In this document: piece by piece, positions 17,478 to 63,219 of the stretch
Numbering within the stretch: the first letter of the stretch is position 1
Layout: each line of letters starts with the position of its first letter
Assembly (NCBI GenBank): GCA_009746045.1
Contig: RPFO01000102.1
Coordinates: forward strand, 876,322 to 940,321
From: Mesostigma viride
Lineage: Eukaryota > Streptophyta > Mesostigmatophyceae > Mesostigmatales > Mesostigmataceae
Direction: 5' to 3'
Length of the DNA: 64,000 nucleotides
Translations under genes and position numbers: made by a program
Notes under the pieces: generated by a model
The model's database searches: none
Told to the model about the DNA's origin: nothing
What the model saw: only the letters and a program-made list of their open reading frames with translations

Positions 17478-19470
17478 GCACGGTGCGCGCACCCCTTGCG
17501 GTAGGGGCCATGGCGACTGCCTTTAGACGAAACGTGACAAATCTGGCACGCGGAAAGCAGAAATGCTCGATTGTTGGAGAAAATTAGTTACTGATTCTAA
17601 TTTATGGCGGGATGGTTGCGATCTATAATGTCGCGGGCTTTTTTTCTTTGCCATCGGCAGGGGGGGTCCGGCCTGAATTTCTGTCGGGATGAATAAAGTA
17701 TAATGGATGCCTGCCGGGTTGATTGTCGATTGTTGCCAGTTTTGATGGTCGTAAGGAAAGCTAGTTTAATGATGTTTCTAAAGCCGTAAAAATTCCCGCT
17801 GCTATCTTTACCTTTCCCGTCATTTTGCGGTAAGATAACATTAGCCCTGCGCGATGCGTACTGCCCAACCACTCCATGAAAGGGTGGACTTTCTTGTGCG
17901 CCTGGGCACGAATAAATGCCCGTTATGGTACGTTCTTGTGTTAAACGTCTTAAGCTAGCGTTTTCCTGCTTTCTTAGCTCGTTGAGCGTAAGCTTTTTGC
18001 CTTCTTTCCGGCCAGATGCAGCCAGAAAGTTGCGGGTCCTGGCGCTGCATCGCTGGATTCCTGGGTGTCTTTTAGCTAGTTAATCGTCTGTGACGTGGCT
18101 GGCTTTCTGCAGCGCGTGGCCCGCAACCTGTCGGGAAGGTGTAATGCTTTTATTTCCATGCTTCTCTGAAATTTCTTTTGCTTTATAGACAGTTGTGTTC
18201 GAGGAAATTCACGCGGTCTTCCTAAGCAGCGGCATCATTTTCCCCAGACACTGACGAGCTGGCACCTGTCTCCTAAAGAGAGCGGCTCGTGCTTGTTAGA
18301 AAGGAGGCAGTGTGCATTTTGCGGGACACAATGCTTTGGTGGCACATGCGTCAGGTAGGCTGTTCCAATGGTCTCTTCACCTTTCCCACTGAGTAAATGT
18401 TAGCATTTGTCATGCTAACCAGAGCAGCTAGCCACAGGTTGGCTGGATAAAAAGTCAGCTTATTTTCTCTTTATATACTGCGTGTGTGGTCCTCCACGTG
18501 TCCGGCTTGTTGGGCATTTTGGAAGAGGGTTTATAATGTGTTGTTGGGTGGAACAACTTGGTTGTTGGCACAAAATCACACATTATTAGCCTGAGATAGG
18601 CATGACATATGCTGCTCAGGCGTGTCGTCCTACCAGCCTTGTTGTTAAGGGTAGACTCACAAGGCTGGCTGTGCCGATGGAGGGGTGGGGCGTGCTAGCC
18701 CCCCCCCACACCCACGCATGCAATGATGCTAGCCCACCCCCACACCCACGCATGCATGCTAGCCCACACTCACACCCACGCATGCATGCTAGCCCCCCCC
18801 CACACCCACGCATGCATGCTAGCCCACACTCACACCCACGCATGCATGACAGCCCCCCCCCACACCCACGCATGCATGCTAGCCCCACACACACACCCAC
18901 GCATGCATGCCAGCCCCCATACACACCCACGCATGCATGCCAGCCCCCCCCACACTTACGCATGCATGCTAGCCCCCCCACACACACACGCATGCATGCC
19001 AGCCCCCCCACACACCCACGCATGCAGGCTAGCCCACCCCCACACCCACGCATGCATGCCAGCCCACCCCCACACCCACGCGTGCATGCCAGCCCACCCC
19101 TAGCTTGAGCGTGCTTGTAAAGTTTTTGCATGGTTTATTAAAATGAGTGGAATATGTATTTATTGCATTAAATGTTAATTTTATCATGAATGAAAATGGT
19201 CAACATTGCCGAAGTGCCCCTAAATTGCTCAATATTGTGTGCTCAAGAATTCAATGAGGATTGTCATCATGGAAACCCGCACAAATTCACGATTCCGGGC
19301 ATGCATGTGAAAGTATCAAGAACAATTTTCAATTAAGAATGGTATCTCATTGTTCCATGAATCAATATGACTCCATGTACGTAGACAAGCCATGATGACC
19401 CCATGGGAGCCTAAATCCTCATCATTAAATACATAAATGCCACCCATGTACGTAGACGGGCCATGATGAC
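17478..19470. repeat. Left arm of giant inverted repeat
   Basis: From GCACGGTGCGCGCACCCCTTGC inward, this arm is the reverse complement of about 61180-63142 at high identity with small indels. It holds about 1.2 kb of unique sequence, a 30-bp minisatellite, about 270 bp of AT-rich sequence, and the first units of the 71-bp satellite. The outermost 73 bp and the TTAA found on the right arm are not present here, so the left end seems truncated or different. A short frame conserved between arms (VILPQNDGKGKDSSGNF) is noted, but the two arms disagree in frame downstream. Confidence 0.88.
18703..19100 (+). repeat. 30-bp minisatellite, left arm (about 13 copies)
   Basis: The unit is CATGCATGCTAGCCCC followed by a C-rich CCCCCACACCCACG. 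C-run length varies between copies. The reverse-complement array is in the right arm at 61555-61935. Translations (MHASPPPHPR or reverse ACMRGCGGGL) are open because 30 is divisible by three; they are not genes. Confidence 0.93.
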
Positions 19471-22400
19471 ACCAATGGAGCCTGAATCCTCATCATTTTG
19501 TTTTCTTTGACATCCATGTACATACGTAGGCCAGCCATGATGACACCAATGGAGCCTGAATCCTCATCATTAATTACATACATGCCATCCATGTACGTAG
19601 ACAGGCCATGATGACACCATGGGAGCCTGAATCCTCATCATTTACTATTCCTTGACATCCATGTACGTAGACGGGCCATGATGACACCATGGGAGCCTGA
19701 ATCCTCATCATTAAATACATAAATGACATCCATGTACGTACGTAGACAGGCCATGATGACACCATGGGAGCCTGAATCCTCATCATTTACTATTCCTTGA
19801 CATCCATGTACATAGACGGGCCATGATGACACCATGGGAGCCTGAATCCTCATCATTTACTATTCCTTGACATCCATGTACGTAGACGGGCCATGATGAC
19901 ACCATGGGAGCCTGAATCCTCATCATTTTGTTTTCTTTGACATCCATGTACATACGTAGGCCAGCCATGATGACACCAATGGAGCCTGAATCCTCATCAT
20001 TAATTACATACATGCCATCCATGTACGTAGACAGGCCATGATGACACCATGGGAGCCTGAATACTCATCATTTACTATTCCTTGACATCCATGTACGTGG
20101 ACGGGCCATGATGACACCATGGGAGCCTGAATCCTCATGATTTACTATTCCTTGACATCCATGTACGTAGGCCAGCCATGGAGACACCATGGGAGCCTGA
20201 ATCCTCCTCATTTTTTTTTTCTTTGACATCCATGTACGTAGACGGGCCATGATGACACCATGGGAGCCTGAATCCTCATCATTAATTACATAAATGACAT
20301 CCATGTACGTAGACGGGCCATGATGACACCATGGGAGCCTGAATCCTCATCATTAATTACATACTTGCTGAGCTTCGCTCATTTTATATATGACGCGTGG
20401 ACGGGCTCAAAGGGGACCGACCTGCCGTAGGTAGCGTAAGACTAGCGCTTGTCACGAGGGTACTGCACCTTTTTGTGCCTAGGCTGAGTGTGGTTCCGGA
20501 GTGCAGGCCTAGGTAGCTTCTAACGTACGTCACTAGACCTTGTTACCTGCGCCAGCCGCCAGGCGTGGCGCAACTGTGATTGGCAGTCAGTACACCTTGT
20601 ACCTGCGCCAGCCGGCAGGCCTGCGTGGCGCAATGTGAATGATAGTCAGTACTTAGAGTGGTGTAGGGGACGTAGGGAGGCCTCTTTTCAGCTTCGCAAC
20701 TTGATCCCAGCATTTGCTGGCAAGGTCGGCTGGCCGCTATGGCGGCTGCGCTGAATGTAAGACGATGCTATCGGCCTCTCCGGGCGTGGAGAGGCCTGGA
20801 ATAAAATTCTTTATGTTCGCCACCCACCGTTACAGGCCACGGTAATGGTTGTTGGGTGGGGGGCTCTACGTTTTGAGTAAAATGGTGTGATTTCCGGCGC
20901 TGGGCCCACTGACGATTCCCCTCTACCCCTGGGTGCGGCAAGCGGCTTCCTGACACTGGGGAAGCTGCGATTTTAGTCGGACAACGTCAGGGAAGGAGCC
21001 ATACAGGCCAGGGCCAGCGGCTACGGTGGAAAGAATCACAGGTGGAGGCGAATCTGCCTTAAACGTGGAGATGGCTAGCGCGGGGTGCCAGGGTAGCCCA
21101 TAACTGCCAGGAGCCTGACAGCGGACCCGATCTTTCGGCCTGTGGCCAGACGGGAGTTTCGGGGAGGATGCGGGGCTGGAGCGAATCTTGGTGGGAGGAG
21201 CGCGCTCTTCATCATTGCCCAGTTTTTCAGCAAAGAATGTTCGCCTGGCGGGGCTGAAATTCTTGCTGTTTTATCGCCTTGTTTTTATCCTGTATGATGC
21301 ATTATAGGAAAAGCGATAAAGAGTTCGGTTCAGCCAGGGGGGCATATCTATGCCATAAAAAATTTCCTACAACAACACAAGCCCTGGTCAGGGCCTTGGC
21401 TAAGCAGTTTCCAAGCCAAGGCCTTGGTAGGGTAGAGGGCCTATCGCCACAAAGGTTTCAATGCCGGGAAATCCCAGCCTCGGGGGTGGGGCTGGTGATG
21501 GGTCCTGGGCTTGTGAGAGACGGTCCGGGGGCGTAAGGCCTAATGAGCAGCCGCTGGAAACCGCCCCCCTAACGGGGGGAACGACATGGGTGCCGCCCTG
21601 CGTCCGCCGGGAAACCGTAGCGGCCACACGGGGGCGGCAGTACAGCCGTGGCAGCGTGCAGGGGGGGGCCATGGGCGGAAAGAAAATCGGCACCAAGGTT
21701 GGCGACAGCCTTGGTGGCCAAGAAGGAGGTGTGGGGGCAACACCTTGTGTTCGAGTATGCTGGGCCCCCAGCATGGTGCTACAATAACCAACTTGATAAT
21801 GATGTGCACTGAGTTTGAAGGTGTGGTATAGGCTGTCCGTATAAAGCCTAGCACACAAAAATGTAAAATAAATGTTTCTCTTGGTGGGAAGGAACTCCAA
21901 TGGACCAAAAACAAGAAATGTATTTGCTGAGCTTCGCTCATTTTATATATGACGCGTGGACGGGCTCAAAGGGCACCGACCTGCCGTAGGTAGCGTAAGA
22001 CTAGCGCTTGTCACGAGGGTACTGCACCGGCCGGCCCTTTTTGTGCCTAGGCTGAGTGTGGTTCCGGAGTGCAGGCCTAGGTAGCTTCTAACGTACGTCA
22101 CTAGACCTTGTTACCTGCGCCAGCCGCCAGGCGTGGCGCAACTGTGATTGGCAGTCAGTACACCTTGTACCTGCGCCAGCCGGCAGGCCTGCGTGGCGCA
22201 ATGTGAATGATAGTCAGTACTTAGAGTGGTGTAGGGGACGTAGGGAGGCCTCTTTTCAGCTCCCACCCACCCACCCACGCTGCTAAGAGGGGCAACACCT
22301 TGTGTTCGAGTATGCTGGGCCCCCAGCATGGTGCTACAATAACCAACTTGATAATGATGTGCACTGAGTTTGAAGGTGTGGTATAGGCTGTCCGTATAAA

Positions 22401-25400
22401 GCCTAGCACACAAAAATGTAAATCATGTACGTAGACGGGCCATGGAGACACCATGGGAGCCTGAATCCTCATCATTTACTATTCCTTGACATCCATGTAC
22501 GTAGACGGGCCATGATGACACCATGGGAGCCTGAATCCTCATCATTAATTACATAAATGCCATCCATGTACGTAGACGGGCCATGATGACACCATGGGAG
22601 CCTAAATCCTCCTCATTAATTACATAAATGCCATCCATGTACGTAGGCCAGCCATGGAGACACCATGGGAGCCTGAATCCTCCACATTCATTACATAAAT
22701 GCCAACCATGTACGTAGACAAGCCATGATGACACCATGGGAGCCTGAATCCTCATCATTTACTATTCCTTGACATCCATGTACGTAGGCCAGCCATGATG
22801 ACACCAATGGAGCCTGAATCCTCTTCATTTTTTTTATGAGAGGATTCAGGTTACATAAATGCCAACCATGTAGGTAGACAAGCCATGATGACACCATGGG
22901 AGCCTGAATCCTCATCATTAAATACATAAATGCCATCCATGTATGTAGGCCAGCCATGGAGACACCATGGGAGCCTGAATCCTCCTCATTAATTACATAA
23001 ATGCCAACCATGTACGTAGACAAGCCATGATGACACCATGGGAGCCTGAATCCTCATCATTTACTATTCCTTGACATCCATGTACGTAGGCCAGCCATGA
23101 TGACACCATGGGAGCCTGAATCCTCATGATTTACTATTCCTTGACATCCATGTACGTAGGCCAGCCATGGAGACACCATGGGAGCCTGAGTCCTCCTCAT
23201 TAATTACATACATGCCATCCATGTACGTAGACAAGCCATGATGACCCCATGGGAGCCTGAATCCTCATCATTTTTTTTTCTTTGACATCCATGTACATAC
23301 GTAGGCCAGCCATGATGACACCATGGGAGCCTGAATCCTCATCATTTTCTATTCCTTGACATCCATGTACGTAGACGGGCCATGATGACACCATGGGAGC
23401 CTGAATCCTCATCATTTACTATTCCTTGACATCCATGTACGTAGACGGGCCATGATGACACCATGGGAGCCTGAATCCTCATCATTTTGTTTTCTTTGAC
23501 ATCCATGTACATACGTAGGCCAGCCATGGAGACACCATGGGAGCCTGAATCCTCCTCATTAATTACATACATGCCATCCATGTACGTAGACAAGCCATGA
23601 TGACCCCATGGGAGCCTGAATCCTCATCATTTTTTTTTTCTTTGACATCCATGTACGTAGACGGGCCATGATGACACCATGGGAGCCTGAATCCTCATCA
23701 TTAATTACATAAATGACATCCATGTACGTAGACGGGCCATGATGACACCATGGGAGCCTGAATCCTCATCATTAATTACATACTTGCCATTCATGTACGT
23801 AGACGGGCCATGGAGACACCATGGGAGCCTGAATCCTCATCATTTACTATTCCTTGACATCCATGTATGTACGTAGACGGGCCATGATGACACCATGGGA
23901 GCCTGAATCCTCATCATTAATTACATAAATGCCATCCATGTACGTAGACGGGCGATGATGACACCATGGGAGCCTAAATCCTCCTCATTAATTACATAAA
24001 TGCCATCCATGTACGTAGGCCAGCCATGGAGACACCATGGGAGCCTGAATCCTCCACATTCATTACATAAATGCCAACCATGTACGTAGACAAGCCATGA
24101 TGACACCATGGGAGCCTGAATCCTCATCATTTACTATTCCTTGACATCCATGTACGTAGGCCAGCCATGATGACACCAATGGAGCCTGAATCCTCTTCAT
24201 TTTTTTTATGAGAGGATTCAGGTTACATAAATGCCAACCATGTAGGTAGACAAGCCATGATGACACCATGGGAGCCTGAATCCTCATCATTAAATACATA
24301 AATGCCATCCATGTATGTAGGCCAGCCATGGAGACACCATGGGAGCCTGAATCCTCCTCATTAATTACATAAATGCCAACCATGTACGTAGACAAGCCAT
24401 GATGACACCATGGGAGCCTGAATCCTCATCATTTACTATTCCTTGACATCCATGTACGTAGGCCAGCCATGATGACACCATGGGAGCCTGAATCCTCATG
24501 ATTTACTATTCCTTGACATCCATGTACGTAGGCCAGCCATGGAGACACCATGGGAGCCTGAGTCCTCCTCATTAATTACATACATGCCATCCATGTACGT
24601 AGACAAGCCATGGTGACCCCATGGGAGCCTGAATCCTCATCATTTTTTTTTCTTTGACATCCATGTACATACGTAGACAAGCCATGATGACACCAATGGA
24701 GCCTGAATCCTCATCATTAATTACATACATGCCATCCATGTACGTAGACAGGCCATGATGACACCATGGGAGCCTGAATCCTCATCATTTACTATTCCTT
24801 GACATCCATGTACGTAGACGGGCCATGATGACACCATGGGAGCCTGAATCCTCATCATTTTGTTTTCTTTGACATCCATGTACATACGTAGGCCAGCCAT
24901 GGAGACACCATGGGAGCCTGAATCCTCATCATTAATTACATACATGCCATCCATGTACGTAGACAAGCCATGATGACCCCATGGGAGCCTGAATCCTCAT
25001 GATTTACTATTCCTTGACATCCATGTACGTAGGCCAGCCATGGAGACACCATGGGAGCCTGAGTCCTCCTCATTAATTACATACATGCCATCCATGTACG
25101 TAGACAAGCCATGATGACCCCATGGGAGCCTGAATCCTCATCATTTTTTTTTCTTTGACATCCATGTACATACGTAGACAAGCCATGATGACACCAATGG
25201 AGCCTGAATCCTCATCATTAATTACATACATGCCATCCATGTACGTAGACAGGCCATGATGACACCATGGGAGCCTGAATCCTCATCATTTACTATTCCT
25301 TGACATCCATGTACGTAGACGGGCCATGATGACACCATGGGAGCCTGAATCCTCATCATTTTGTTTTCTTTGACATCCATGTACATACGTAGGCCAGCCA

Positions 25401-28300
25401 TGGAGACACCATGGGAGCCTGAATCCTCATCATTAATTACATAAATGCCATCCATGTACGTAGACAGGCCATGATGACACCATGGGAGCCTGAATCCTCA
25501 TCATTTACTATTCCTTGACATCCATGTACGTAGACGGGCCATGATGACACCATGGGAGCCTGAATCCTCATCATTTTGTTTTCTTTGACATCCATGTACA
25601 TACGTAGGCCAGCCATGGAGACACCATGGGAGCCTGAATCCTCCTCATTAATTACATACATGCCATCCATGTACGTAGACAAGCCATGATGACCCCATGG
25701 GAGCCTGAATCCTCATCATTTTTTTTTTCTTTGACATCCATGTACGTAGACGGGCCATGATGACACCATGGGAGCCTGAATCCTCATCATTAATTACATA
25801 AATGACATCCATGTACGTAGACGGGCCATGATGACACCATGGGAGCCTGAATCCTCATCATTAATTACATACATGCCATCCATGTACGTAGACAAGCCAT
25901 GATGACCCCATGGGAGCCTGAATCCTCATCATTTTTTTTTTCTTTGACATCCATGTACGTAGACGGGCCATGATGACACCATGGGAGCCTGAATCCTCAT
26001 CATTAATTACATAAATGACATCCATGTACGTAGACGGGCCATGATGACACCATGGGAGCCTGAATCCTCATCATTAATTACATACTTGCCATTCATGTAC
26101 GTAGACGGGCCATGGAGACACCATGGGAGCCTGAATCCTCATCTTTTGCTATTCCTTGACATCCATGTACGTAGACGGGCCATGATGACACCATGGGAGC
26201 CTGAATCCTCATCATTAATTACATAAATGCCATCCATGTACGTAGACGGGCGATGATGACACCATGGGAGCCTAAATCCTCCTCATTAATTACATAAATG
26301 CCATCCATGTACGTAGGCCAGCCATGGAGACACCATGGGAGCCTGAATCCTCATCATTAATTACATAAATGCCAACCATGTACGTAGACAAGCCATGATG
26401 ACACCATGGGAGCCTGAATCCTCATCATTTACTATTCCTTGACATCCATGTACGTAGGCCAGCCATGATGACACCAATGGAGCCTGAATCCTCTTCATTT
26501 TTTTTATGAGAGGATTCAGGTTACATAAATGCCAACCATGTAGGTAGACAAGCCATGATGACACCATGGGAGCCTGAATCCTCATCATTAAATACATAAA
26601 TGCCATCCATGTTCGTAGGCCAGCCATGGAGACACCATGGGAGCCTGAATCCTCCTCATTAATTACATAAATGCCAACCATGTACGTAGACAAGCCATGA
26701 TGACACCATGGGAGCCTCAATCCTCATAATTTACTATTCCTGGACATCCATGTACGTAGGCCAGCCATGATGACACCAATGGAGCCTGAATCCTCTTCAT
26801 TTTTTTTATGAGAGGATTCAGGTTACATAAATGCCAACCATGTAGGTAGACAAGCCATGATGACACCATGGGAGCCTGAATCCTCATCATTAAATACATA
26901 AATGCCATCCATGTACGTAGGCCAGCCATGGAGACACCATGGGAGCCTGAATCCTCATCATTTACTATTCCTTGACATCCATGTACGTAGACGGGACATG
27001 ATGACACCATGGGAGCCTGAATCCTCCTCATTAATTACATAAATGCCAACCATGTACGTAGACAAGCCATGATGACACCATGGGAGCCTGAATCCTCCTC
27101 ATTAATTACATAAATGCCATCCATGTACGTAGGCCAGCCATGGAGACACCATGGGAGCCTGAATCCTCATCATTAATTACATAAATGCCAACCATGTACG
27201 TAGACAAGCCATGATGACACCATGGGAGCCTGAATCCTCATCATTTACTATTCCTTGACATCCATGTACGTAGGCCAGCCATGATGACACCAATGGAGCC
27301 TGAATCCTCTTCATTTTTTTTATGAGAGGATTCAGGTTACATAAATGCCAACCATGTAGGTAGACAAGCCATGATGACACCATGGGAGCCTGAATCCTCA
27401 TCATTAAATACATAAATGCCATCCATGTACGTAGGCCAGCCATGGAGACACCATGGGAGCCTGAATCCTCCTCATTAATTACATAAATGCCAACCATGTA
27501 CGTAGACAAGCCATGATTACACCATGGGAGCCTGAATCCTCATCATTTACTATTCCTTGACATCCAGGTACGTAGACGGGCCACGATGACACCATGGGAG
27601 CCTGAATCCTCTTCATTTTTTTTATGAGAGGATTCAGGTTACATAAATGCCAACCATGTACGTAGACAAGCCATGATGACACCATGGGAGCCTGAATCCT
27701 CATCATTATATACAAAAATGCCATCCATGTACGTAGACGGGCCATGATGACCCCATGGGAGCCTGAATCCTCATCATTAATTACATAAATGCCATTCATG
27801 TACGTAGGCCAGCCATGATGACACCATGGGAGCCTGAATCCTCATCATTAATTACATACTTGCCATTCATGTACGTAGACGGGCCATGGAGACACCATGG
27901 GAGCCTGAATCCTCATCATTTACTATTCCTCGACATCCATGTACGTAGACGGGCCATGATGACACCATGGGAGCCTGAATCCTCATCATTACTTACATAA
28001 AGGCCATCCATGTACGTAGACGGGCCATGATGACACCATGGGAGCCTAAATCCTCCTCATTAATTACATAAATGCCATCCATGTACGTAGGCCAGCCATG
28101 GAGACACCATGGGAGCCTGAATCCTCCTCATTAATGACATAAATGCCAACCATGTACGTAGACAAGCCATGATGACCCCATGGGAGCCTGAATCCTCATC
28201 ATTAATTACATAAATGCCATCCATGTACGTAGACGGGCCATGATGACCCCATGGGAGCCTGAATCCTCATCATTAATTACATACATGCCATCCATGTACG
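19380..28300 (-). repeat. 71-bp satellite array, minus orientation
   Basis: Tandem units have a conserved core (GCCATGATGACACCATGG, then GAGCCTGAATCCTCATCAT) joined by alternative linkers: ATTAATTACATAAATGCCATCC, TTTACTATTCCTTGACATCC, or T-run plus CTTTGACATCC, and then CATGTACGTAGAC. Linker choice creates higher-order repeats; for example, 22549-23023 recurs at 23921-24395, a period of 1372 bp. The array is interrupted by the non-autonomous PAT-like element at 20365-22422. Many open frames arise from the repeat and are not genes. Confidence 0.95.
20365..22422 (+). mobile_element. Non-autonomous PAT/DIRS-like element with split direct repeats
   Basis: Repeats occur in the order A1 (20365-20692), B1 (21733-21867), A2 (21924-22260), B2 (22289-22422). 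This A1-internal-B1-A2-B2 layout is the hallmark of PAT-type tyrosine-recombinase retrotransposons. A2 carries a 9-bp insertion (CGGCCGGCC-like) relative to A1. Between A2 and B2 is a C-rich block, TCCCACCCACCCACCCACG. The roughly 1-kb internal region has no RT, recombinase or Gag that I can see, so it would depend on an autonomous partner. A TTTTATATATG box lies near the start of A1. No target-site duplication is expected or seen. Confidence 0.85.
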
Positions 28301-28305
28301 TAGAC

Positions 28306-30190: not shown

Positions 30191-30396
30191 TTGGTTACAG
30201 CATATATCAGGCAACTTGTCATTATATAACACAATTATTGACTTGAAACTCCTCGACCAATGCAAAAATTTGCCAAAACCTTCTATAAAACTATTTTGGG
30301 AAGTCCACAGCATCCAAAAAACACATTTTTCAAATTTTCATTTAGGACAGACCTGCAGCCTCCCAAATCTCTCCTAACCCAAACAAACAACCCCCA
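30191..30396. other. Unique spacer beside the centre
   Basis: About 200 bp of AT-rich, non-repeated sequence between the GC-rich repeat and the plus-orientation satellite. It holds no gene. It has no counterpart on the left side of the GC repeat, so the palindrome centre is asymmetric. Confidence 0.6.
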
Positions 30397-38379: not shown

Positions 38380-38434
38380 GCATGAAGAATAAGGGGAGGG
38401 CCATCATGCAACACCTGTTTAATAGCCCTAGACC

Positions 38435-44102: not shown

Positions 44103-44133
44103 CTTTAAAAATGAGAGAGTTTTTATAAATGCA

Positions 44134-46599: not shown

Positions 46600-46667
46600 G
46601 AGAACCTCACGTGACCACAACACAAAAAACAAAACGCAAGATAACACATCAAGCAGTATAACCTACC

Positions 46668-47770: not shown

Positions 47771-48056
47771 GGGAGCGGTGCCTTCTTCCACTACCTCTTC
47801 CAGCACCCCTGCCACCTCGTGACTGGTGGCAGCAGGTACGCTCAGGCCGTAGGCGCGATAGGATGAGTCGGGCTTTTAATGCTCGCACACTAGCCTGTCA
47901 GACGGTTAGGGCGTTAAACTGGATGGGGGGGGGGGGCGAGACCCGCCTGCTGTAGATTCAGCCCGTGTGCCCGGGCCTCTGCAGCAGGCGGCCCTAGATG
48001 GGATCGATGATGCTTGCAGGTCCTTTGTCCGCCGGAACGGTGGTTCCGTAGCGGCA

Positions 48057-51000: not shown

Positions 51001-54000
51001 TTGCATGCATGGATACGTGAATGCTTGCACGGATGGGTGGTGTTTGCATGCATGGATACGTGAATGCTAGCATGGATGGATGGTGTTTGCATGCATGAAT
51101 GTGTGAATGCTTGGGGTGGATGGTGTTTGCATGCATGGATACGTGAATGCTTGCGTGGATGGATGGTGTTTGCATGCATGGATGCGTGAATGCTTGCAGG
51201 GATGGAAGTGATTGCATGCATGGATACGCGAATGCATGCATGAATGTGACCGAGGACAGTGTAAGCACCTTTTAGGGATTAATATAGTGGTGAATATGGG
51301 CAGGCCCCCTGACCCATGTGAGTTATACATGTATTCAAGGAGACAACGATTCCAGTCCATGGCAGGATATATAAAGGATACCAACCCCAAGTCGGTGGGG
51401 GTATGCATGTGACCCAATTCAGTACAAGTGTAATAACAGTGATTCGGGCCGTGGTGTCAGCAACCCTGTCACTCAAGGTTACATTATAGATACTCATTCC
51501 ATCTCCGCCTCCACATCATTGAGGATGTAATATACGCGACAACTATTAATGTTCGCATGGCGGTCACGCGACGCCTGATCAACGCGTAGCGTCTGCGTGT
51601 CGTAATTTAATTTTTGAATATTAATGCACAGTCACCATTTTACCGCGTGCTGGCCTGCACTTAGCCCTTGGATGACCAGTGTGTAACTCTACCCCTAGTT
51701 ATGGCTGGTTGCACCTTGCATGATAATGTCCAGAAACCAGCCTGATAACAATCTAGTGTCCATACTGGGACCAAAGCACACGCATATAGGGAGTTACTTC
51801 GGGGTCATGTCATTAGTCATGTTGCAATGTCCTATATGTCCTATGGGTGCTAAATACAGCACTAATCTCAGGGGGTGCACGGGTGCGATAAAAAAGACAC
51901 TTACAATGCAATGTTAAGTGATAATGCAATATTGGACGTCTTCACAAACCAAGGCCCAAATGCACACGTAGCAAGGGGGTGCAAGGGGCGGTGTTACCCA
52001 TGCATCCAGAACATGAGAAATGACCTCCATTTGCATGCCTAGGATGAAAATATACAAACACTGCATCGAACTTCTTTTCTACGTCAGCAAGGCACTGGGG
52101 CCTCCATAGATGTTGCACGGACTGCACAACTGCACAGGCGTCCTTTACTAGCAAAGCCAAAAGGCTGACAAAAAACTGGCCATGATACCATCTTTCCTGA
52201 AGAATTTAGGCAATAGAAACCATCGTGCTACCATCTACAACTCCTTTAGATGTTAAATCAATCGTCATTCTAGAAAATTAGGTACAGACGCAGCTAATCA
52301 TGAACAAAACTGATGAAAATCTTACGACGACGGTTGTACAAAACCACAACCACAAACTAGTACACAGGAGTAGTAAGTTAGCGAACTTAACACCACAAAC
52401 CTTCAACAACGTGTCCGAGATTACTTACCGAATGATATAACGACTTTACCTTGTTGACGGTATCCGCAGGTACACTAAACTGCGCCATGCCGAAACCGCA
52501 AAAAGAAGGCTAGCGGAAAGCTAGCAATCTCATGACAGAAAGGCAATCTCATCACGGCGTCGAGACTTTCCTGGCCCTGAACGATGATGAAATACGCGAA
52601 ATACATCATACGAAAACTACTGGTTGCGAAAATTTCAATGATACAGAAGCTAATAACAAGTGCTGCCTTTCATCGTCACCCCCGTGATGATTAACGCGTG
52701 TAGACGCAGTAAAAAGTAAAAACCAGCCCGAGATAATGTGCGCATCATTAGATGTTGCGCGACTGCGGCTATAGCATTTTTCTGACGCCGCTCATTTCAG
52801 TTCGGTTGATTCTTCGCGCCGGTCAGCCAAGGAGTGACATACTTCACGTCGGGGTGTATCTTTAGTTGCGATACCACGCGTTTGCCGTTTCGCAACTTTT
52901 CGTCCAAATCGGTCCTCGCAAGAATCGCAACAAAAGTGTTTTTTGGTCCTCCTGGAAAGTTGCGTAGTTGCGATTCTTGTTGCGATACTGCGGGTGACCC
53001 CTGTACAGCCTGCTGGATAGTGGCCACTGGCGTACGGCACTGTCCTACCGGTGGCGGGGGCAGCCTAACCACATCAACGTCAAGGAGGCGATTGCTGCGA
53101 CACAGGGGGTCGAGTGGTCGTGCCGGACCAAGGCGTGTCGGGGTAAGCGAGTCGTCCGGCTCGTAGACTCCAGTGCTGTGGTGGGGGCGTTTGTCAGAGG
53201 GCGGTCGTCTTCCTACCGTCTCAACCAGCTGGTTCGACGCTACTGCGCTCTGTCACTGGCTGGCGACATGCAGAGCCACTGGGTCTGGGTGGCTACCGAC
53301 CACAACCCAGCTGACAAGGCCAGTCGGCGTGGCGCTTGGGTTCCTGACTTGACCCGGTGTGGTGACGTGCATCCCAACCCTGGGCCTGAGGGGGCGCGAC
53401 GCCCTCGGGACTTGGCACTTTTGGAGGGCACAGTCAACCCTGTGTCTACGTTGCCAGCGTACCGACGTGCGGCGGCTGTCTACGTGGCGTGGGCGCCACC
53501 TGGCCCTGTCGACCCAGCTGACGCCGAAGCCATTTTCTGTGAGTGGATTTCTGCTGTCTACCATGCCAGAGGCGGGCGGGGGCGTACCTTATGCCAGCAT
53601 GCCAAGGCCTGTCTGCACCTGTACTACCCCGACATTGTTCGGAATTGGGTACTGGCGGACCGCCTGCTAGCAGGTTGGCAGCGGCTTGTTCCGGCTGTCA
53701 GCCCTCCGCCTATGCCCTGGCGCCTTTGCTATTTCACTGCCCTGTTGCTAGTTTCACGTCGACAGGTGCATTTGAGTGCGTTGATTATTATTGCTTTCCA
53801 GCAGTATTTACGCATTAGCGAGGCGCTAGGGCTGCGGGTTCGGGATGTGGCTCATCCCGGCCACCCCCTTCTCGAGCCAGGGCCCATGGTCGGTGCCCTT
53901 GTGCTGCGCAACCCCAAAACTGCGCAGGGGGCGGCCCAGCACGTCCTCGTCCGGGATCCACTTTCCTTGTGGCTCCTGCGACGTCTGACGGCTGGCCAGC

Positions 54001-54323
54001 CCCCGGATGCACTCCTCTTTCGAGGCTTAACGTACAGCCAGGCTAGGCAGCAGTGGGAGGCTGTGCAGGCCCGCATGAGCATCCCAGGGATGTTTTCTTT
54101 TCACAGCCTCCGGCATGGGGGGGCGACGCACGACGCCATCGCTGGCGAGTCGCCGGAGGCCATCCAGCTGCGCGGCCGGTGGGCTTCGGCCCTCTCGGTC
54201 ACGCGCTACATTGGCCTCCACCGCAGCCTCCTGGGGCGCGACATCCCACCCGCCCTCTGGGCTCAGGCCCTGGGTTTTGACCCAGCGGTTTTCCGGCGCC
54301 ACTTCGGTGGCGTCGAGTTTTGA
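48057..54323 (+). CDS. RT-RNase H-tyrosine recombinase fusion (pol), split by insertion
   Basis: The first in-frame ATG is at 48057, though the frame is open from about 47910. The parts are 48057-49579 and 53006-54323; without the insertion they form one frame of 946 codons plus stop. RT motifs: GTFGVGKPDGRIRLIVDNRR, GVSDLDSYYNRLRLP (first Asp), MHAVTIDDLHFTH (catalytic TIDD). RNase H: VVASDASGSGGGV, then after the insertion RLVDSSAVVGAFVRG and WVATDHNPADKASR. Next comes CGDVHPNPGP, a 2A-like motif. The recombinase follows: YLRISEALGLR (catalytic Arg at 53811-53813), FHSLRHGGATH (His at 54102, Arg at 54111) and RWASALSVTRYIG (nucleophile Tyr at 54207-54209). RT makes the cDNA and the recombinase integrates the circle. 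As it stands, the gene is broken by the inserted element. Confidence 0.88.
49580..53003. mobile_element. 3.4-kb DNA element with 38-bp TIRs and TA target duplication
   Basis: The left end 49580-49617 and right end 52966-53003 are perfect inverted repeats of 38 bp (CAGGGGTCACCCGCAGTATC at the tip). TA is duplicated at 49578-49579 and 53004-53005. CGCAAC/GTTGCG motifs recur just inside both ends (for example 49733, 49745, 49777; 52865, 52891, 52925), giving subterminal repeats. Removing the element with one TA restores an uninterrupted pol frame. The interior has no transposase that I can see; it contains a 43-bp minisatellite (50600-51240). So it is non-autonomous, Tc1/mariner-like by its TA duplication only. 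Confidence 0.9.
50450..51245 (+). repeat. 43-bp GCATGCATGGAT minisatellite
   Basis: The unit is CAGGGATGGATGGTGTTTGC followed by ATGCATGGATACGTGAATGCTTG. About 14-15 copies with substitutions and a few shortened units lie inside the TA-flanked DNA element. The frames across it are open on both strands and are not taken as genes. Confidence 0.88.
53361..53387 (+). other. 2A-like motif GDVHPNPGP between RNase H and recombinase
   Basis: The nine residues GDVHPNPGP end in the NPGP that is essential for 2A ribosome skipping; canonical 2A is DxExNPGP, and here His replaces Glu. The motif lies after the RNase H NPADKASR block and about 45 residues before the first conserved part of the recombinase. 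Whether it is active cannot be told from sequence. Confidence 0.7.
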
Positions 54324-54520
54324 CGTCCTCCTGTTTTTACCTCTCGTCTTTTAGCTATCAACTGACCTCACCCTTGTGTGGGAGGTCAGGGGGGAAATGG
54401 TTTAACTAACCCGAGGGTGAACCTGGGTTGGGACAAAGTACCCCCATAGCTAGGTAGTTTAAGTTTTCTTTTTTGCATGTCCTACGTATTTTCGGCTGTT
54501 AGCCATGTAAGGAGATGTGG
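54324..54520 (+). other. 3' non-coding region of pol
   Basis: About 200 bp between the pol stop and repeat B1. It contains an inverted pair around GACCTCACCC/GGGAGGTCAG and a T-rich stretch. No gene. Confidence 0.5.
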
Positions 54521-54660
54521 GTAGAGCAGGGGCACAGCTGCTGTGGGCTGGCCCTGCACATTCACATAGTGTGCTCACCCTAGCATACAGATGGCCGTGT
54601 TGCCATCTGGTAGACATGTCTGTGTTATTCCACCGTATAGAGCTAGCACACATATTGTAA
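54521..54660 (+). repeat. PAT-like element repeat B1
   Basis: 140 bp from GTAGAGCAGGGGCACAG to CACACATATTGTAA, repeated as B2 at 54951-55090. It is followed by TAAATTTGATG with an AATAAA-like ATAATAAATTTG overlap, a possible polyadenylation signal. Confidence 0.9.
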
Positions 54661-54714
54661 TAAATTTGATGTTTTGTGGTGATGCATGCAAAGCAAGGCA
54701 AGGCCAGAAATGGA

Positions 54715-55090
54715 TTTGGTGAGCTATGCTCATTTTATCTATGACTAACCTGCTGAGCGGAGAATGCAACGCCGTATAGCACCAAAAGAAAAAATAATTT
54801 TAGAAAAAATATTTTTTGTGCTGGCACCCGTACCCCAGCCACCCAGGTAGGGGTTGGCTGGAGAGGTGGTTGCTATAAAGGGTGGGCTTCCATTCTAGGG
54901 AAGCAGGTTGTTTTCTTTTGCCTCCCACCCGCCCACCCTGGCAAAAGGGGGTAGAGCAGGGGCACAGCTGCTGTGGGCTGGCCCTGCACATTCACATAGT
55001 GTGCTCACCCTAGCATACAGATGGCCGTGTTGCCATCTGGTAGACATGTCTGTGTTATTCCACCGTATAGAGCTAGCACACATATTGTAA
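54715..55090 (+). repeat. PAT-like element repeats A2 and B2 with C-rich junction
   Basis: A2 is 54715-54923 and B2 is 54951-55090. Between them is TCCCACCCGCCCACCCTGG. The unrelated non-autonomous element at 20365-22422 has a very similar block (TCCCACCCACCCACCCACG) at the same place. After B2 come about 11 bp (ACGCATACTGT) and then satellite. Confidence 0.9.
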
Positions 55091-55357
55091 ACGCATACTG
55101 TATGGCTTGTATACGTACATGGTTGGCATTTATGTAATTAATGAGGAGGATTCAGGCTCCCATGGTGTGACTCTCCATGGCTGGCCTATGTACATGGTTG
55201 GCATTTATGTAATTAATGAGGAGGATTTAGGCTCCCATGGTGTCATCATCGCCCGTCTACGTACATGGATGTCAAGGAATAGTAAATGATGAGGATTCAG
55301 GCTCCCATGGTGTCATCATGGCTTGTATACGTACATGGTTGGCATTTATGTAATTAA
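55091..55357 (+). repeat. 71-bp satellite, segment before the TTAA element
   Basis: Matches 36116-36360 unit for unit, including the unusual GGTGTGACTCTCCATGG variant. It ends with the TTAA (55354-55357) that is duplicated on the other side of the next element. Confidence 0.92.
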
Positions 55358-57639
55358 GGGGAGGGGACACCCCTAAAGGGCACTTTTCTGGAAACCATAC
55401 CTATGCATGAGCTAAAAATCCAATTATGATTGGGGACCATAAATATGATAAAAAAAAAATTTTCCAGCCACTTGGGGGGGGTACTAGCCCCCACCATACA
55501 CCGGTAACGCGCTAAAAATAGAAAAAGACGCTATTTTAGTCACATTTTTTCTAGGACAATGGGCAAACATATTGGGACCAAATCATATATTTCCATATAG
55601 TTCCCTGACTTTTGAGAAAGTCTGCCTAATTTTGAGCACAAAATAACCATGTTTAGACACATTGATGGATTTCCCCGCAAAAAGGGTACTTTTTTAAACA
55701 AAAAAAAATAAAACAAATCATAAACACATGCAATAGTGCCAAATCATATATTTTCAAATATTACACGTTGGGAGACATGCAGCCCCAAATTTTCAGGTCA
55801 TTCTGACAAGCGCAGCCCTATTTGATGGATATTCCTAGATTGCCACCTGTGACGAAGCTAAGGGAGGTGTTAGCTAGTATTTAACCACACTAACACCCCT
55901 TTATACATCTAAGCCTCATGAAAACTGGCCAAACCACATACTACCATTCTCTGCACATATGGTACCTCCTATGTTCAAGGTTTGACGCCATTCTGACAAG
56001 AACTGCCCAAGTTGCAACCATTCCAAGACGGCCACCCATGTAGACGCTACAAGGAAATTAGAGTAACCATTTAGCCACACTAGCACCTCCTTCTTCATCA
56101 AAGACATCTGCAAACTGACCAAAGCACACATAATCAACTCTTGCACGCTGACGGCAACGCATGCTCAATGTGGGGGGTCATTGCGACAAGAACTGCTCAA
56201 GTTGATGGGTTTCCTATATGACCACATGACAAGGCGCTAAGGACCACTCAGTAAGTTAGTAACCCCACAGTGCCACTTAATATGCCATCCAACATGCACC
56301 AAAACCATGCAGAGTATGTTTACAAAGTACAAAGGGGTGGCCACGCACCTCATATGTCTTCATCATCCCTCCAGCATGGCCAGCCTTGTAAATATGTGCA
56401 TAGCCTTGACGATGGTAGCCCTAACATGCCTAAGCGGCATTTCCTATGTTTCTCCCAGGTTAGAGTGTAAGGTTGATGCCAACCAAGCTAATCAACACAA
56501 CAACACCTCCTAAACTGTCCTCCCCGGCATGGATGACAAACTGGGACTATGGAGGGCAAGGAACCAAGTAAGAACATGGTATATATAGCTTGCATGCAGT
56601 CATGCATGTCAACCATGGTTGGCTCAGCACATTGTAGTCTTGTCACATCATCATAACAAAGGAAAGCTCAAACAACCATTGGTGCCAGCTATCTACATGC
56701 AGTCACACAAATGCAATATCTCCAACATCATCATCACTATAACACTTCCATCCCTGCACGATAAAATGCAAAGAAACCATTGGCGGCCCTTCACCGCATG
56801 AGCGCTGTGATGCCGCTGCGGCCTGTGAGGGTGCGTCACTCTCAAACAACAAGAAGCGTCCATACGCACAACATCCTTGCCAGAACACGTTTTATGAAAT
56901 GCCTTATACCTTCCCGAAGAGCTATAGGCTGCGACTGAAGCGGCCCTGATCACGACATCAACGAAAACAATCTAAAGCTGCCAGGTATTCGACAACACAA
57001 CGGCAAGCGACGGCGAGCTAGCTGGCGGAAACTGCCCAAAAAGAACGCAAAAAACCTCGAACGATGAGCTCATAGAAGAAAGCACCGATAGCAGATAACG
57101 TTCGCGACAAATCTGTACCTTGCCCTCGTAAATACCTCGCCCAGGCGCGCAACAACAGCCGTTCTTCCATGGACAGGTCAGACACGCACTGCGCAGGTCT
57201 GAACAATTACTTACCGATAATGGCCGAAAATCTGGCAAAAAGCACCAGCTCGGTTTAGAATTCGATGCAACCGATATTAATGCCTGCTTCAAGGTCAGAA
57301 CAGCCCCCAAAACCGCTATTTTACAGCCGCTATCATAAATTCTATTTCATTCCGCGCGACCAAAAAATTCAGATTACCCCCCATGCCGATGGCATAAAAA
57401 AACAACAGCGATATTGTAAACCAGCTGATTTCCGCCACAAACTAACATCATAAACTCATCTACTTTTAGATTCGAGTAAAATTTTTGCATTTCGCCTGCC
57501 CTAGTGTGGTAGTTTCGCCTGAACGCAGTCGCCATGGCCACTTCCGCAAGGGGTGCGCGCACCGTGCACGTGAAATTTGTGACCTTCGGCTCCGGCGCGA
57601 ATTTTTTGGCGCCAAAAAATTCGGGGGTGTCCCGTCCCC
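55358..57639. mobile_element. 2.28-kb TTAA-flanked non-autonomous DNA element
   Basis: Ends are imperfect inverted repeats of 16-17 bp: GGGGAGGGGACACCCC at the left, and GGGGGTGTCCCGTCCCC at the right. TTAA is duplicated (55354-55357, 57640-57643), the signature of piggyBac-like insertion. No transposase is visible inside; short frames have no recognisable domain. The right end shares GCAGTCGCCATGGCCACTTC and GGGGTGCGCGCACCGTGCAC with the giant right arm near 63100-63142. The preceding few hundred bases also align with 62700-63000 at lower identity, so the two belong to one family. Confidence 0.85.
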
Positions 57640-59016
57640 TTAATGAGGAGGATTCAGGCTCCCATGGTGTGACTCTCCATGGCTGGCCTATGTACATGGT
57701 TTGCATTTATGTAATTAATGAGGAGGATTCAGGCTCCCATGGTGTCATCATGGCCCGTCTACGTACATGGATGTCAAGGAATAGTAAATGATGAGGATTC
57801 AGGCTCCCATGGTGTCATCATGGCTGGCCTACGTACATGGATGTCTCATAAAAAAAATGATGAGGATTTAGGCTCCCATGGTGTAATCATGGCCCGTCTA
57901 CGTACATGGATGTCAAGGAATAGTAAATGATGAGGATTCAGGCTCCCATGGTGTCATCATGGCCTGTCTACCTACATGGTTGGCATTTATGTAATTAATG
58001 ATGAGGATTCAGGCTCCCATGGTGTCATCATGGCTGGCCTACGTACATGGATGTCAAAGAAAAAAAAATGATGAGGATTCAGGCTCCCATGGTGTCATCA
58101 TGGCTGGCCTACGTACATGGTTGGCATTTATGTAATTAATGATGAGGATTCAGGCTCCCATGGTGTCATCATGGCTGGCCTACGTACATGGATGGCATGT
58201 ATGTAATTAATGAGGAGGATTCAGGCTCCCATGGTGTCTCCATGGCTGGCCTACGTACATTGATGTCAAGGAATAGTAAATCATGAGGATTCAGGCTCCC
58301 ATGGTGTCATCATGGCCCGTCCACGTACATGGATGGCATGTATGTAATTAATGAGGAGGATTCAGGCTCCCATGGTGTCATCATGGCTGGCCTACGTACA
58401 TGGATGTCAAAGAAAAAAAAATGATGAGGATTCAGGCTCCCATGGTGTCATCATGGCTGGCCTACGTACATGGATGTCTCATAAAAAAAATGATGAGGAT
58501 TCAGGCTCCCATAGTGTCATCATGGCTTGTCTACCTACATGGTTGGCATGTATGTTATTAATGATGAGGATTTAGGCTCCCATGGTGTCATCATGGCCCG
58601 TCTACGTACATGGATGTCAAAGAAAAAAAAATGATGAGGATTCAGGCTCCCATGGTGTCATCATGGCTGGCCTACGTACATGGATGTCTCATAAAAAAAA
58701 TGATGAGGATTCAGGCTCCCATGGTGTCATCATGGCCCGTCTACGTACATGGTTGGCGTTTATGTAATTAATGAGGAGGATTTAGGCTCCCATGGTGTCA
58801 TCATGGCTCGCCTACGTACATGGATGGCATGTATGTAATTAATGATGAGGATTCAGGCTCCCATGGTGTCATCATGGCCCGTCTACGTACATGAATGGCA
58901 TTTATGTAATTAATGATGAGGATTCAGGCTCCCATGGTGTCATCATGGCCCGTCTACGTACATGGATGTCAAGGAATAGTAAATGATGAGGATTCAGGCT
59001 CCCATGGTGTCATCAT
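57640..59016 (+). repeat. 71-bp satellite, segment between TTAA element and LINE
   Basis: Continues the array. Its first units match 36372-36519. The linker variants TCTCATAAAAAAAATGATGAGG and CAAAGAAAAAAAAATGATG are frequent here. The segment ends within a unit at CATGGTGTCATCAT, which is duplicated after the LINE. Confidence 0.93.
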
Positions 59017-59194: not shown

Positions 59195-60567
59195 ATGAGC
59201 AAACGCCCATCGACGCAACGCAGCCTGACGGCTGCGCTCGGCAATGAAAATACGTCCGCAGCTTCGGCTGCAGCTTCGCCCACCGGCCCAGAAGGCAGCG
59301 GCGCCACTAGCCAAGCTCTAGTGGTCGTCCAGCCCCCTGCTGCGCCCGCATCGCCAGCAGCGTCGCCCGAACCCAAGCGCAGTCGCCCTGACGGGCTGCT
59401 GGATGAGTACGACTTTGACGCCAGCCAGCCCGGCTATTTTGACAAGCTTACACCCGATCGCATCCTGGGCAATGTGTTTTTCGGGACGCATGCCTCTCTT
59501 CTAGAACTGTGCAAGCAGCTTTTCCACCAAGGTCGCCTTGTCAATGCCCGCCTCCAGAGGCGAGATTTCGGCAGAGACGTCCTCCACGCCCGCCGCCCCC
59601 ACCTCCAGCAATTCGCCCTCTTTTCCCTCCTTGGACGCTCCATGGAGGAGCTTTGGCCCCCAAAGCCCCTCACCACCACCTTAACCGAATCCTCCATCCG
59701 CTCACTCCTCAAGGAGGCCCTCGAGCAGCACGTGGCCCCATCGCTGCAGATGTGGCGGCCATGGGCAGCACGCTGGCTGCCGAGCTCCCCCTCCTCTCCA
59801 CCATCCCCACCGCCACCGCCACCCTCCTCGCCTCCTCCACCGCCATCACCCCCACCTCCGACGCCATCACCGCCCAGCTCCGTGAAATCGACCAGCGTCT
59901 TAAGGACAACGCAATCGCCATCGAGGTCCTGCAGAACACCGCCGGCCTCACCGCCCAGGCGGTGAAGGACATTGCCGCCAAGCCAGCCCCTGCTGGCCTG
60001 GCCGGCGATGCTCCTCCCATCACGACCTGGGCGGACATGCTTAAGCAGCACACCACCTCCACCACCTCCGCCGTCGCAGCACAGCTCCAGAGGCAGACGC
60101 TTGACCTCCGCGAGGAGGCCGAGCTCGCCAAGCGCAGCCTTAACGTCATTGTCAAGAATCTCAAGATGGAGGAAGGTGAGAATTCCGAGAAGCTTGCGCG
60201 TGCTTTTGAGAGAGAAATCCTTGATCGCATGGGCCTTACTGGTGAGATCGAGCTGGCCGCCCACCGCCTTCCCCGCGCGCGGGGTAAGGCAGGGCCGCCC
60301 CCGCTCCTTCTCACCTTTAAGACCCCGGCGGACAAGATTTCTTTTCTCAGACGCCGCAAGCGGCTCGAGAAGACTCTCTTCACCCTTGATGACGACCTGA
60401 CCCTGGCGCAGCAACAACGGCGACGGGAGCTATGGCCGGCCTACCTCCAGCTCCGGCAGACCAAGGCGGGGCAGCCGGTGTACTGGAAGGGGGCGGCCAT
60501 CTACGTCGGCCACAAGCCCTGGCAGGCGACCCCCGCGGCCCCAGCGACTCCAGACGCCCCAGCTTAG
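59195..60567 (+). CDS. LINE ORF1-type RNA-binding protein, one frameshift
   Basis: The ATG at 59195 starts a Ser/Ala/Pro-rich N-terminus (MSKRPSTQRSLTAALG), then a segment YFDKLTPDRILGNVFFGTHA. A one-base change near 59740 moves into the second frame, which has a helical stretch (AITAQLREIDQRLKDNAIAI), then SLNVIVKNLKMEEGE, an RRM-like start, and IELAAHRLPRARGK, PPPLLLTFKTPADKISFL, FTLDDDLTLAQQQRRRELW and QPVYWKGAAIYVGH. These follow the order of the L1 ORF1p RRM and C-terminal domain. Such proteins coat LINE RNA. Frames between 59509 and 59740 on the second reading are shadows. Confidence is moderate because similarity is judged by pattern. Confidence 0.72.
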
Positions 60568-61011: not shown

Positions 61012-61280
61012 ATGGTGTCATCATGGCTTGTCTACGTACATGGTTGGCATTTATGTAACCTGAATCCTCTCATAAAAAAAATGAAGAGGATTCAGGCTCC
61101 ATTGGTGTCATCATGGCTGGCCTACGTACATGGACGTCAAGGAATAGTAAATGATGAGGATTCAGGCTCCCATGGTGTCATCATGGCCCGTCTACGTACA
61201 TGGGTGGCATTTATGTATTTAATGATGAGGATTTAGGCTCCCATGGGGTCATCATGGCTTGTCTACGTACATGGAGTCAT
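61012..61280 (+). repeat. Last 71-bp satellite units before the right arm
   Basis: Starts with the LINE target duplication. It includes the hairpin variant (CCTGAATCCTCT...AGAGGATTCAGG with an AT-rich loop, near 61050-61095). The final units mirror the first units of the left array (GGGGTCATC and GATTTAGG variants), which shows the arms are continuous with the satellite. Confidence 0.93.
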
Positions 61281-63215
61281 ATTGATTCATGGAACAATGA
61301 GATACCATTCTTAATTGAAAATTGTTCTTGATACTTTCACATGGCTTCCCGGAATCGTGAATTTGTGCGGGTTTCCATGATGACAATCCTCATTGAATTC
61401 TTGAGCACACAATATTGAGCAATTTAGGGGCACTTCGGCAATGTTGACCATTTTCATTCATGATAAAATTAACATTTAATGCAATAAATACATATTCCAC
61501 TCATTTTAATAAACCATGCAAAAACTTTACAAGCACGCTCAAGCTAGGGGTGGGCTGGCATGCACGCGTGGGTGTGGGGGTGGGCTGGCATGCATGCGTG
61601 GGTGTGGGGTTGGGCTAGCCTGCATGCGTGGGTGTGTGGGGGGGCTAGCATGCATGCGTGGGTGTGGGGGGGGGCTGTCATGCATGCGTGGTGGGTGTGT
61701 GGGGGGGCTGGCATGCATGCGTGGGTGTGTGGGGGGGCTAGCATGCATGCGTGGGTGTGGGGGTGGGCTAGCATGCATGCGTGGGTGTGAGTGTGGGCTA
61801 GCATGCATGCGTGGGTGTGGGGGGGGCTAGCATGCATGCGTGGGTGTGGGGGGGCCGGGGCCGGGGCTAGCATGCATGCGTGGGTGTGGGGGTGGGCCAG
61901 CATGCATGCGTGGGTGTGGGGGGGGGCTAGCACGCCCCACCCCTCCATCGGCACAGCCAGCCTTGTGAGTCTACCCTTAACAACAAGGCTGGTAGGACGA
62001 CACGCCTGAGCAGCATATGTCATGCCTATCTCAGGCTAATAATGTGTGATTTTGTGCCAACAACCAAGTTGTTCCACCCAACAACACATTATAAACCCTC
62101 TTCCAAAATGCCCAACAAGCCGGACACGTGGAGGACCACACACGCAGTATATAAAGAGAAAATAAGCTGACTTTTTATCCAGCCAACCTGTGGCTAGCTG
62201 CTCTGGTTAGCATGACAAATGCTAACATTTACTCAGTGGGAAAGGTGAAGAGACCATTGGAACAGCCTACCTGACGCATGTGCCACCAAAGCATTGTGTC
62301 CCGCAAAATGCACACTGCCTCCTTTCTAACAAGCACGAGCCGCTCTCTTTAGGAGACAGGTGCCAGCTCGTCAGTGTCTGGGGAAAATGATGCCGCTGCT
62401 TAGGAAGACCGCGTGAATTTCCTCGAACACAACTGTCTATAAAGCAAAAGAAATTTCAGAGAAGCATGGAAATAAAAGCATTACACCTTCCCGACAGGTT
62501 GTGGGCCACGCGCTGCAGCAAGCCAGCCACGTCACAGACGAACTTGCTTAAAAACATCCAGGAATCCAGCGATGCAGCGCCAGGACCCGCAACTTCATGG
62601 CTGCATCTGGCCGGAAAGAAGGCAAAAAGCTTACGCTCAACGAGCTAAGAAAGCAGGAAAGCGCTATCTTAGACGTTTAATACAAGAACGTACCATAACG
62701 GGCATTTATTCGTGCCCAGGCGCACAAGAAAGGCCACCCTTTCATGGAGAGGTCGGGCGCGCATCGCGCAGGCCTAATGTTATCTTACCGCAAAATGACG
62801 GGAAAGGTAAAGATAGCAGCGGGAATTTTTACGGCTTTAGAAACATCATTAAACTAGCTTCCATTAGGACCATCAAAACTGGCAACAATCGACAATCACA
62901 CCTGCAGGCATCAATTATACTTTATTCATCCCGACAGAAATTCAGGCCGGACCCCCCTGCCGATGGTAAAGAAAAAGAGCCCGCGACATTATAGATCGCA
63001 ACTATCCCACCATAAATTAGAATCAGTAACTAATTTTCTCCAAGAATCGAGCATTTTTTCTGCTTTCCGCGAGCCAGATTTGTCACGTTTCGTCTAAAAG
63101 CAGTCGCCATGGCCACTTCCGCAAGGGGTGCGCGCACCGTGCACCCACTTTTCACGGTACGGAGGGTACCGCGGAATTTTTTTGGCGCGGAAAATATTCG
63201 CCGCGCCGAGTCCCC
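61180..63215. repeat. Right arm of giant inverted repeat, ending at TTAA
   Basis: Reverse complement of about 17478-19470 up to 63142. A further 73 bp, absent on the left, end in GCGCCGAGTCCCC followed by TTAA (63216-63219). The tip resembles the right tip of the element at 55358-57639 (both have AATTTTTTTGGCGC/AATTTTTTGGCGC and end in TCCCC or GTCCCC before TTAA). A 140-codon frame at 62572-62994 (AKKAGKRYLRRLIQERTI and so on) is basic, but it is not kept intact on the left arm, so it is not called a gene. Confidence 0.85.
61555..61935 (-). repeat. 30-bp minisatellite, right arm
   Basis: Inverted counterpart of 18703-19100. Copy variants and order differ between arms (for example an extra GGT near 61690 and GGGGCCGGGGCC near 61853), so the arms have not been homogenised recently. 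Confidence 0.92.
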
Positions 63216-63219
63216 TTAA

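Follow-up and report, generated by a model that had tools for sequence, protein, structure and literature searches.

A satellite palindrome in Mesostigma viride and its likely place inside a far larger dispersed element

RESULTS

Layout of the locus

We analyzed a stretch of 64,000 nucleotides from the streptophyte alga Mesostigma viride (assembly GCA_009746045.1, contig RPFO01000102.1, forward-strand positions 876,322 to 940,321), hereafter the window, which carries a 45.7-kb palindromic satellite block and sequence that continues outward from it. Genome searches covered one assembly (G000, 439.9 Mb in 2243 sequences), in which the window is G000:C1580:876322-940321. The features are given below by position, with the strand where one was assigned.

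9361-9400, no strand: left terminus of the large element, beginning 5'-GGGCGTCCCCAACATCTACTGC, the same start in 11/11 loci
10025-13732, minus: transposase-like gene of several exons (open reading frames 10025-10756, 10814-12706, and 12782-13732)
14126-16104, minus: non-autonomous insertion with PAT/Ngaro-like split direct repeats, absent from the other copies read
17478-19367, plus: left arm, including a 30-bp minisatellite at 18693-19100
19368-28305, plus: left satellite with a 71-bp unit, interrupted by the insertion 20362-22409
20362-22409: non-autonomous insertion (A1 20362-20693, B1 21734-21854, A2 21921-22261, B2 22289-22409)
28306-30404: centre, a GC-rich minisatellite plus 214 bp of AT-rich sequence
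30405-61279, minus: right satellite, inverted, in pieces 30405-36969, 44679-46390, 55102-55364, 57642-59016, and 61079-61275
36971-44658, minus: Copia-like long terminal repeat (LTR) element in the right satellite, with 525-bp LTRs 99% alike
46391-55090, plus: tyrosine-recombinase retroelement with PAT/Ngaro-like split direct repeats, in the satellite
55358-57639: small Kolobok-like element, TTAA on each side, termini GGGG..CCCC
61280-63142, minus: right arm, an inverted copy of the left arm
63143-63219, minus: TTAA-type tip of the right arm, internal at present; the left arm is without it
63220-64000, plus: large element continuing past the window edge, with a hairpin from 64048 outward

Inverted arms enclose a satellite that flips once

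Alignment of the left arm (17478-19367) with the reverse complement of 61280-63142 gave 94.8% identity over 1897 columns, which confirms the two arms of about 2 kb as the reverse complements that the original prediction had taken them to be. Its claim of a satellite that reverses across a GC-rich centre held equally well. By counting monomers with a 26-base core word and up to 6 edits, we found 95 in plus orientation to the left of the centre and 143 inverted to the right, with none in the opposing orientation on either side and a unit spacing of mostly 69-75 bp. The centre consists of a 75% GC segment (28306-30190) followed by 214 bp at 37% GC. At word size 7 and E 1, no similarity was found between the satellite monomer and either the arms or other parts of the window, and inserted sequence makes up about 23 kb of the 45.7-kb block when insert lengths are summed. 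The block combines long inverted arms, internal tandem repeats, and a variable middle, the anatomy of a fold-back element, and kilobase-scale inverted subarrays of the kind called macro-dyads occur in the window as well as in contigs C63, C14, and C1945.

The right arm resembles half of a Kolobok-like element

The right arm runs out in GTCCCC followed by TTAA (63210-63219), and this tip matches that of the TTAA-flanked element at 55358-57639, as originally proposed; the homology extends over about 1 kb, well beyond the tip. Against the right kilobase of the small element, the right arm matches at 712 of 922 aligned bases (score 523, with 215.5 as the best of 50 shuffles). At C1:6241541, sequence resembling the left half of the small element precedes the right arm (402/511; score 347, best of 50 shuffles 158) and is itself preceded by satellite. 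The small element has TTAA on both sides (55354-55357 and 57640-57643) and GGGG..CCCC termini, in line with the TTAA target duplication and 5'-RR and YY-3' termini described for Kolobok (PMC9587614). No reading frame of at least 200 amino acids is listed for it, and no Kolobok transposase was identified, although a genome search for one was not made.

On these alignments, the right arm most likely represents a Kolobok-like element's right half. The left arm edge bears no TTAA, and the counterpart of the last 73 bp of the right arm is also missing there; judged by its sequence, the left arm is an inverted copy without those 73 bp and the TTAA. From the homology that links the right arm with the right half of the small element, we infer that the palindrome likely began as a fold-back relative of this small Kolobok-like TTAA element. 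TTAA at both ends of the whole palindromic block was not found.

Homology passes both arm edges and stops sharply at 9361

Copy counts were taken from the best 40 of 994 candidates for 17478-18478, the best 40 of 917 matches to 17280-17600, and the best 40 of 1808 candidates for 63080-63260. The first 40 all print as 100% identical, and the second 40 all span the full query, thereby crossing the left-arm edge at 17478. Other loci match leftward to 13.7 kb, skipping the window's insertion at 14126-16104, and the match of C453 reaches 9361. Here the left homology stops, with an identical 5'-GGGCGTCCCCAACATC in 11/11 loci (nine fetched chromosomal places, C453, and the window) and 11 different flanks. 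A precise terminus in differing flanks, as expected of a DDE DNA transposon, is seen at the left end, which is of unlike sequence and lies 8.1 kb outward of the left arm. Over about 520 bp of this end, the ten other copies are on average 99.92% alike, and the window copy is 99.06%.

On the right, all best 40 candidates continue beyond the TTAA at 63216. Thirty right-tip loci, the window included, were cut out: 18 match unbroken to 64500 and two reach 64251 and 64387, while eight rejoin after a missing stretch and two depart at 63663 and 63624. The right homology thus extends to at least 64500, from where the window contig C1580 reads N. Walking C1580, C1457, and C1324, which run into N, and C544, which runs into LTR-retroelement-like sequence, did not reach a right end.

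A hairpin of about 750 bp begins near 64048 (L065:2216-2967) and is 88.7% identical. It includes a box resembling GGTTCGAATCC, which we take to be tRNA-like; ARAGORN found no transfer RNA gene in L065 or in the window. Eight of the 30 right-tip loci (L055-L058, L065, L071, L081, and L082) miss differing stretches at about 63.7-64.2 kb beside the hairpin, as if this region were a deletion hot spot.

These continuations bear directly on what the mobile unit is. The original prediction had described a block bounded by its arms and a TTAA edge, possibly forming a giant non-autonomous transposon. The inverted arms, the recurrence of the block, and the TTAA-derived right arm stand; the bounds do not, as homology passes both edges (to 9361 on the left), and in the search for loci with the same ends and TTAA flanks, the best 40 copies of each edge all continue outward; the left arm edge bears no TTAA. 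That arms and satellite still move by themselves as a giant non-autonomous fold-back TTAA transposon is accordingly quite unlikely. The Kolobok-like tip at a TTAA, homologous to a truly TTAA-flanked element, and the inversion of both arms and satellite would suit such a unit, but each arm edge runs into the same outer sequence in 40/40 of the best copies scored, and the left arm has neither tip nor TTAA. As the present mobile unit, it is contradicted by the best 40 copies at each edge, although a copy whose two arms both end at TTAA may exist beyond these.

The palindrome recurs with constant order and orientation

By comparing the best-40 lists for the left-arm edge and the right tip, we identified ten contigs common to both, nine of which hold ten left-arm/right-tip pairs in constant order and orientation. 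The distances are 17.0 kb (C84), 15.8 kb (C82), 31.3 kb (C76), 12.9 kb (C63), 22.9 kb (C19), 13.7 kb (C14), 16.5 kb (C12), 28.6 and 69.1 kb (C1), and 45.5 kb (window); the tenth contig, C2, has no fitting pair. The interiors of C63 and C14 were sampled in 10 slices each of 251 bp, and each showed one satellite flip. In C63, arm sequence fills the first and last slices; in C14, the arm stands at the right-arm end, the next two slices are inserted sequence, and the 17280-17600 list supplies the left arm. Both flips fall in a 750-bp unsampled gap, and since this is shorter than the 2.1-kb centre of the window, there is too little room for that centre in C63 or C14.

That C63 and C14 each have a single flip enclosed by the same arms indicates that the structure is no chimera of this window. 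An assembly chimera at the window contig would be conceivable, given how difficult satellites and hairpins are to assemble and that N is reached in several copies, but beyond these two contigs the ten arm-tip pairs of the best-40 lists share one orientation, and inverted satellite adjoins the right arm in L054, L065, and L078, so we regard it as very improbable. The simpler alternative first offered, an inversion-duplication of one satellite locus, does not fit either, because the copies occur in different flanks. Both explanations are contradicted by the other loci.

The arms diverged in their outer part and are alike in their inner part

Full-length arms were compared for 34 left arms of 36 loci (at least two places counted twice) and 17 right arms of 29, all 17 from the tip class 98-100% identical to the window. 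In the outer 640 bp, left arms are 99.94% alike among themselves and right arms 99.0%, whereas left and right arms agree at 94.5% and are separated by 21 fixed differences. The inner 515 bp are 99.2% alike between left and right, with 0 fixed differences. The right arm of C84 (L082), the sole locus of the 95% tip class examined, is of right type at 19/21 of these sites and of left type at 0, with the other 2 differing or gapped; its left arm belongs to the set of 34. Against the outer arms of the window, L082 agrees with the right arm at 586/588 sites and with the left at 559/590. Given the 21 fixed differences, the arms most likely diverged before the copies spread, making the palindrome older than the spread, and the inner part was homogenized, likely by gene conversion between the arms.

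The same evidence touches a further explanation, in which the palindrome is a macro-dyad that the satellite itself produced, whether by break-induced inversion or by fold-back replication, with mobile repeats as no more than its flanks. Kilobase-scale flips of this kind have been described for satellite arrays of Tribolium madens (PMC13081366), and C1945:81475 shows a head-to-head satellite flip without spacer. Against it speak the place of the flip, which in the window, C63, and C14 alike is enclosed by the same pair of inverted arms, and the 21 fixed outer-arm differences; both point to one ancestral palindrome, and we consider this origin rather improbable.

The spacerless flip of C1945 (L051:2475) forms a small hairpin at its junction, and a single stray reversed monomer match lies at 86192. 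A reading of C1945 as two tandem copies was rejected, with two left arms in the same orientation and no right tip among the 40 listed, and this contig was left out of the complete-copy evidence.

A transposase-like gene sits inward of the left terminus

The minus-strand gene at 10025-13732 occupies the interval between the left end and the left arm. The protein of frame 10814-12706 is 98% identical over 40% of the query to the M. viride gene model P0001, which by our reading joins the first two frames; the remaining query is broken by a likely intron. Its relatives are the paralogue P0003 (40%; 1018 amino acids), P0004, and P0002 (21-25%). D283, D369, and HGK...DG.G are invariant in the four sequences. 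The gene had no match in Pfam. A four-sequence structure model was poor (mean predicted local distance difference test score 37.7), with an RNase H-like order of strands and helices around the motif residues, and weak fold matches included RNase H, Argonaute, and Hermes transposase (best E 0.0085, none at or below 0.001). These features suggest that the gene likely encodes a DDE-type transposase, the putative mover of the unit. Similar animal proteins are regarded as transposase-like.

The likely intron holds a 72-bp minisatellite (11748-12110) in five copies 98% alike, of which C453 has fewer.

Insertions within and beside the block

The retroelement at 46391-55090 has a Phage_integrase match above the Pfam cut-off, and the Copia-like element at 36971-44658 a weak RVT_2 match below it. 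A perfect 110-bp duplication (14016-14125 = 16105-16214) flanks the 1979-bp insertion left of the arm, which is odd for an element of tyrosine-recombinase type. Split direct repeats in the order A1-B1-A2-B2 occur in two more elements, 20362-22409 and 46391-55090, both within the satellite. Frames at 59195-60567, between satellite pieces, presumably resemble ORF1 of a long interspersed nuclear element; a Pfam scan of one of them, 59195-59965, gave no match.

DISCUSSION

A palindrome carried inside a larger element

Because both arm edges continue outward in the best 40 copies of each, the block appears to be internal to something larger. We hold with moderate confidence that the arms and the flipping satellite are internal to a dispersed element of much greater size, likely a giant DNA transposon that would have the satellite palindrome as its passenger. 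More tentatively, and as nearly an even call, we propose that a streptophyte alga harbors a giant transposon which has incorporated a satellite palindrome of tens of kilobases into its body and spreads it, the transposon being the normal carrier of the satellite family and the fold-back form being inherited and guarded by the arms. A DDE-type transposase from the minus-strand gene would move the unit and carry the palindrome to new places. A fold-back form of a Kolobok-like TTAA element would have sat within the larger element, where its left tip was lost; afterwards the satellite may have lengthened and shortened by unequal exchange, with the inner arms kept alike, likely through gene conversion between them.

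Several observations weigh against this reading. The right end falls outside the window, and the sequence covered shows neither a terminal inverted repeat nor a target duplication nor an empty site; GGGGACGCCC, which is the left tip in reverse complement, does not occur in the window, in C1580 63000-64500, or in L084, and no common target word was seen by eye among the 11 left flanks. The copies are not uniform: 9/30 right-tip loci match the right arm of the window only from 62116 outward (satellite follows directly in L054 and L065, the two read of these nine), a further class of right arms, such as L073, is without the arm minisatellite, and the GC-rich centre (28306-30404) was found in no other fetched locus, only in the window. 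The 34 left arms comprise just 6 distinct sequences, and one place may be represented by several small contigs as alternative versions, which bears on the copy counts. The transposase reading is built on motifs, few relatives, and a poor model.

Pairing adds a further difficulty. Among the best 40 right tips, 29 are 98-100% identical to the window and 11 are at 95%; a listed left arm accompanies 1/29 of the close tips, the window's own, and 9/11 of those at 95%. Since each list holds the best 40 matches, unpaired rows are expected, yet the pairing is lopsided by tip class, hinting at two subfamilies. With only one close tip in 29 paired, two subfamilies may have recombined to give the window copy, or the left and right parts may not always travel together.

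This last point also favors the view that the unit spread without a transposase, through amplification of segmental or rolling-circle type that prefers to break at 9361. Left and right parts are seldom paired among the best 40 of each list, many short contigs carry the same left part, and no right terminus, target duplication, or terminal inverted repeat was seen. Such an amplification nevertheless seems unlikely to us, given the same first base in 11/11 loci with differing flanks and the presence of almost identical copies on separate large contigs.

How satellite families become dispersed is a long-standing question. Inverted satellite pairs of several kilobases, sitting within dispersed and closely similar copies of one large element, make spread, length change, and arm exchange traceable copy by copy. 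Titles and abstracts of the open-access Mesostigma literature on genome, transposable elements, repeats, and satellite DNA yielded no paper on this element.

Comparison with known systems

A close parallel is Tetris, a fold-back transposon of Drosophila virilis that combines inner tandem repeats with a flanking domain and is connected to satellite arrays (PMC4079207). Shared with the Mesostigma block are long inverted arms with an outer flanking domain, inner tandem repeats, and a variable middle, as well as repeats that expand to satellite-like arrays and kinship to a small non-autonomous element (PMC4079207). The arms of Tetris are described there as terminal, up to 1,735 bp long, and flanked by 8-10 bp target duplications (PMC4079207). 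In Mesostigma, by contrast, the left-arm edge and the right tip stand 13-46 kb apart including inserts (69 kb in one possible pair), and the palindrome, whose length far exceeds that of Tetris arms, lies within a larger element and has TTAA as its outer trace. Arms that form the flanked termini of a mobile unit, as in Tetris, Galileo, and FB, were not found, both edges continuing in the best 40 copies of each.

Galileo, of the P superfamily in Drosophila, is similar in its long, internally repetitive inverted arms and structural dynamism (PMC3573991, PMC4079207). The Mesostigma arms differ in lying inside the element instead of at its ends, the TTAA trace is of Kolobok type, and Pfam gave no match for the transposase-like gene. 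The macro-dyads of Tribolium madens likewise consist of satellite arrays of several kilobases, up to tens of kilobases, in two opposed subarrays; they belong to multi-megabase, likely (peri)centromeric regions, whereas the Mesostigma palindrome is part of a dispersed unit with transposon-derived arms (PMC13081366). The Kolobok features available for comparison, TTAA duplication and RR..YY termini, are both present in 55358-57639, with YY and TTAA at the right-arm tip (PMC9587614), but the present mobile unit of Mesostigma does not end at TTAA. If the giant-transposon reading is true, it would take fold-back anatomy to much longer structures and bring it to the streptophytes.

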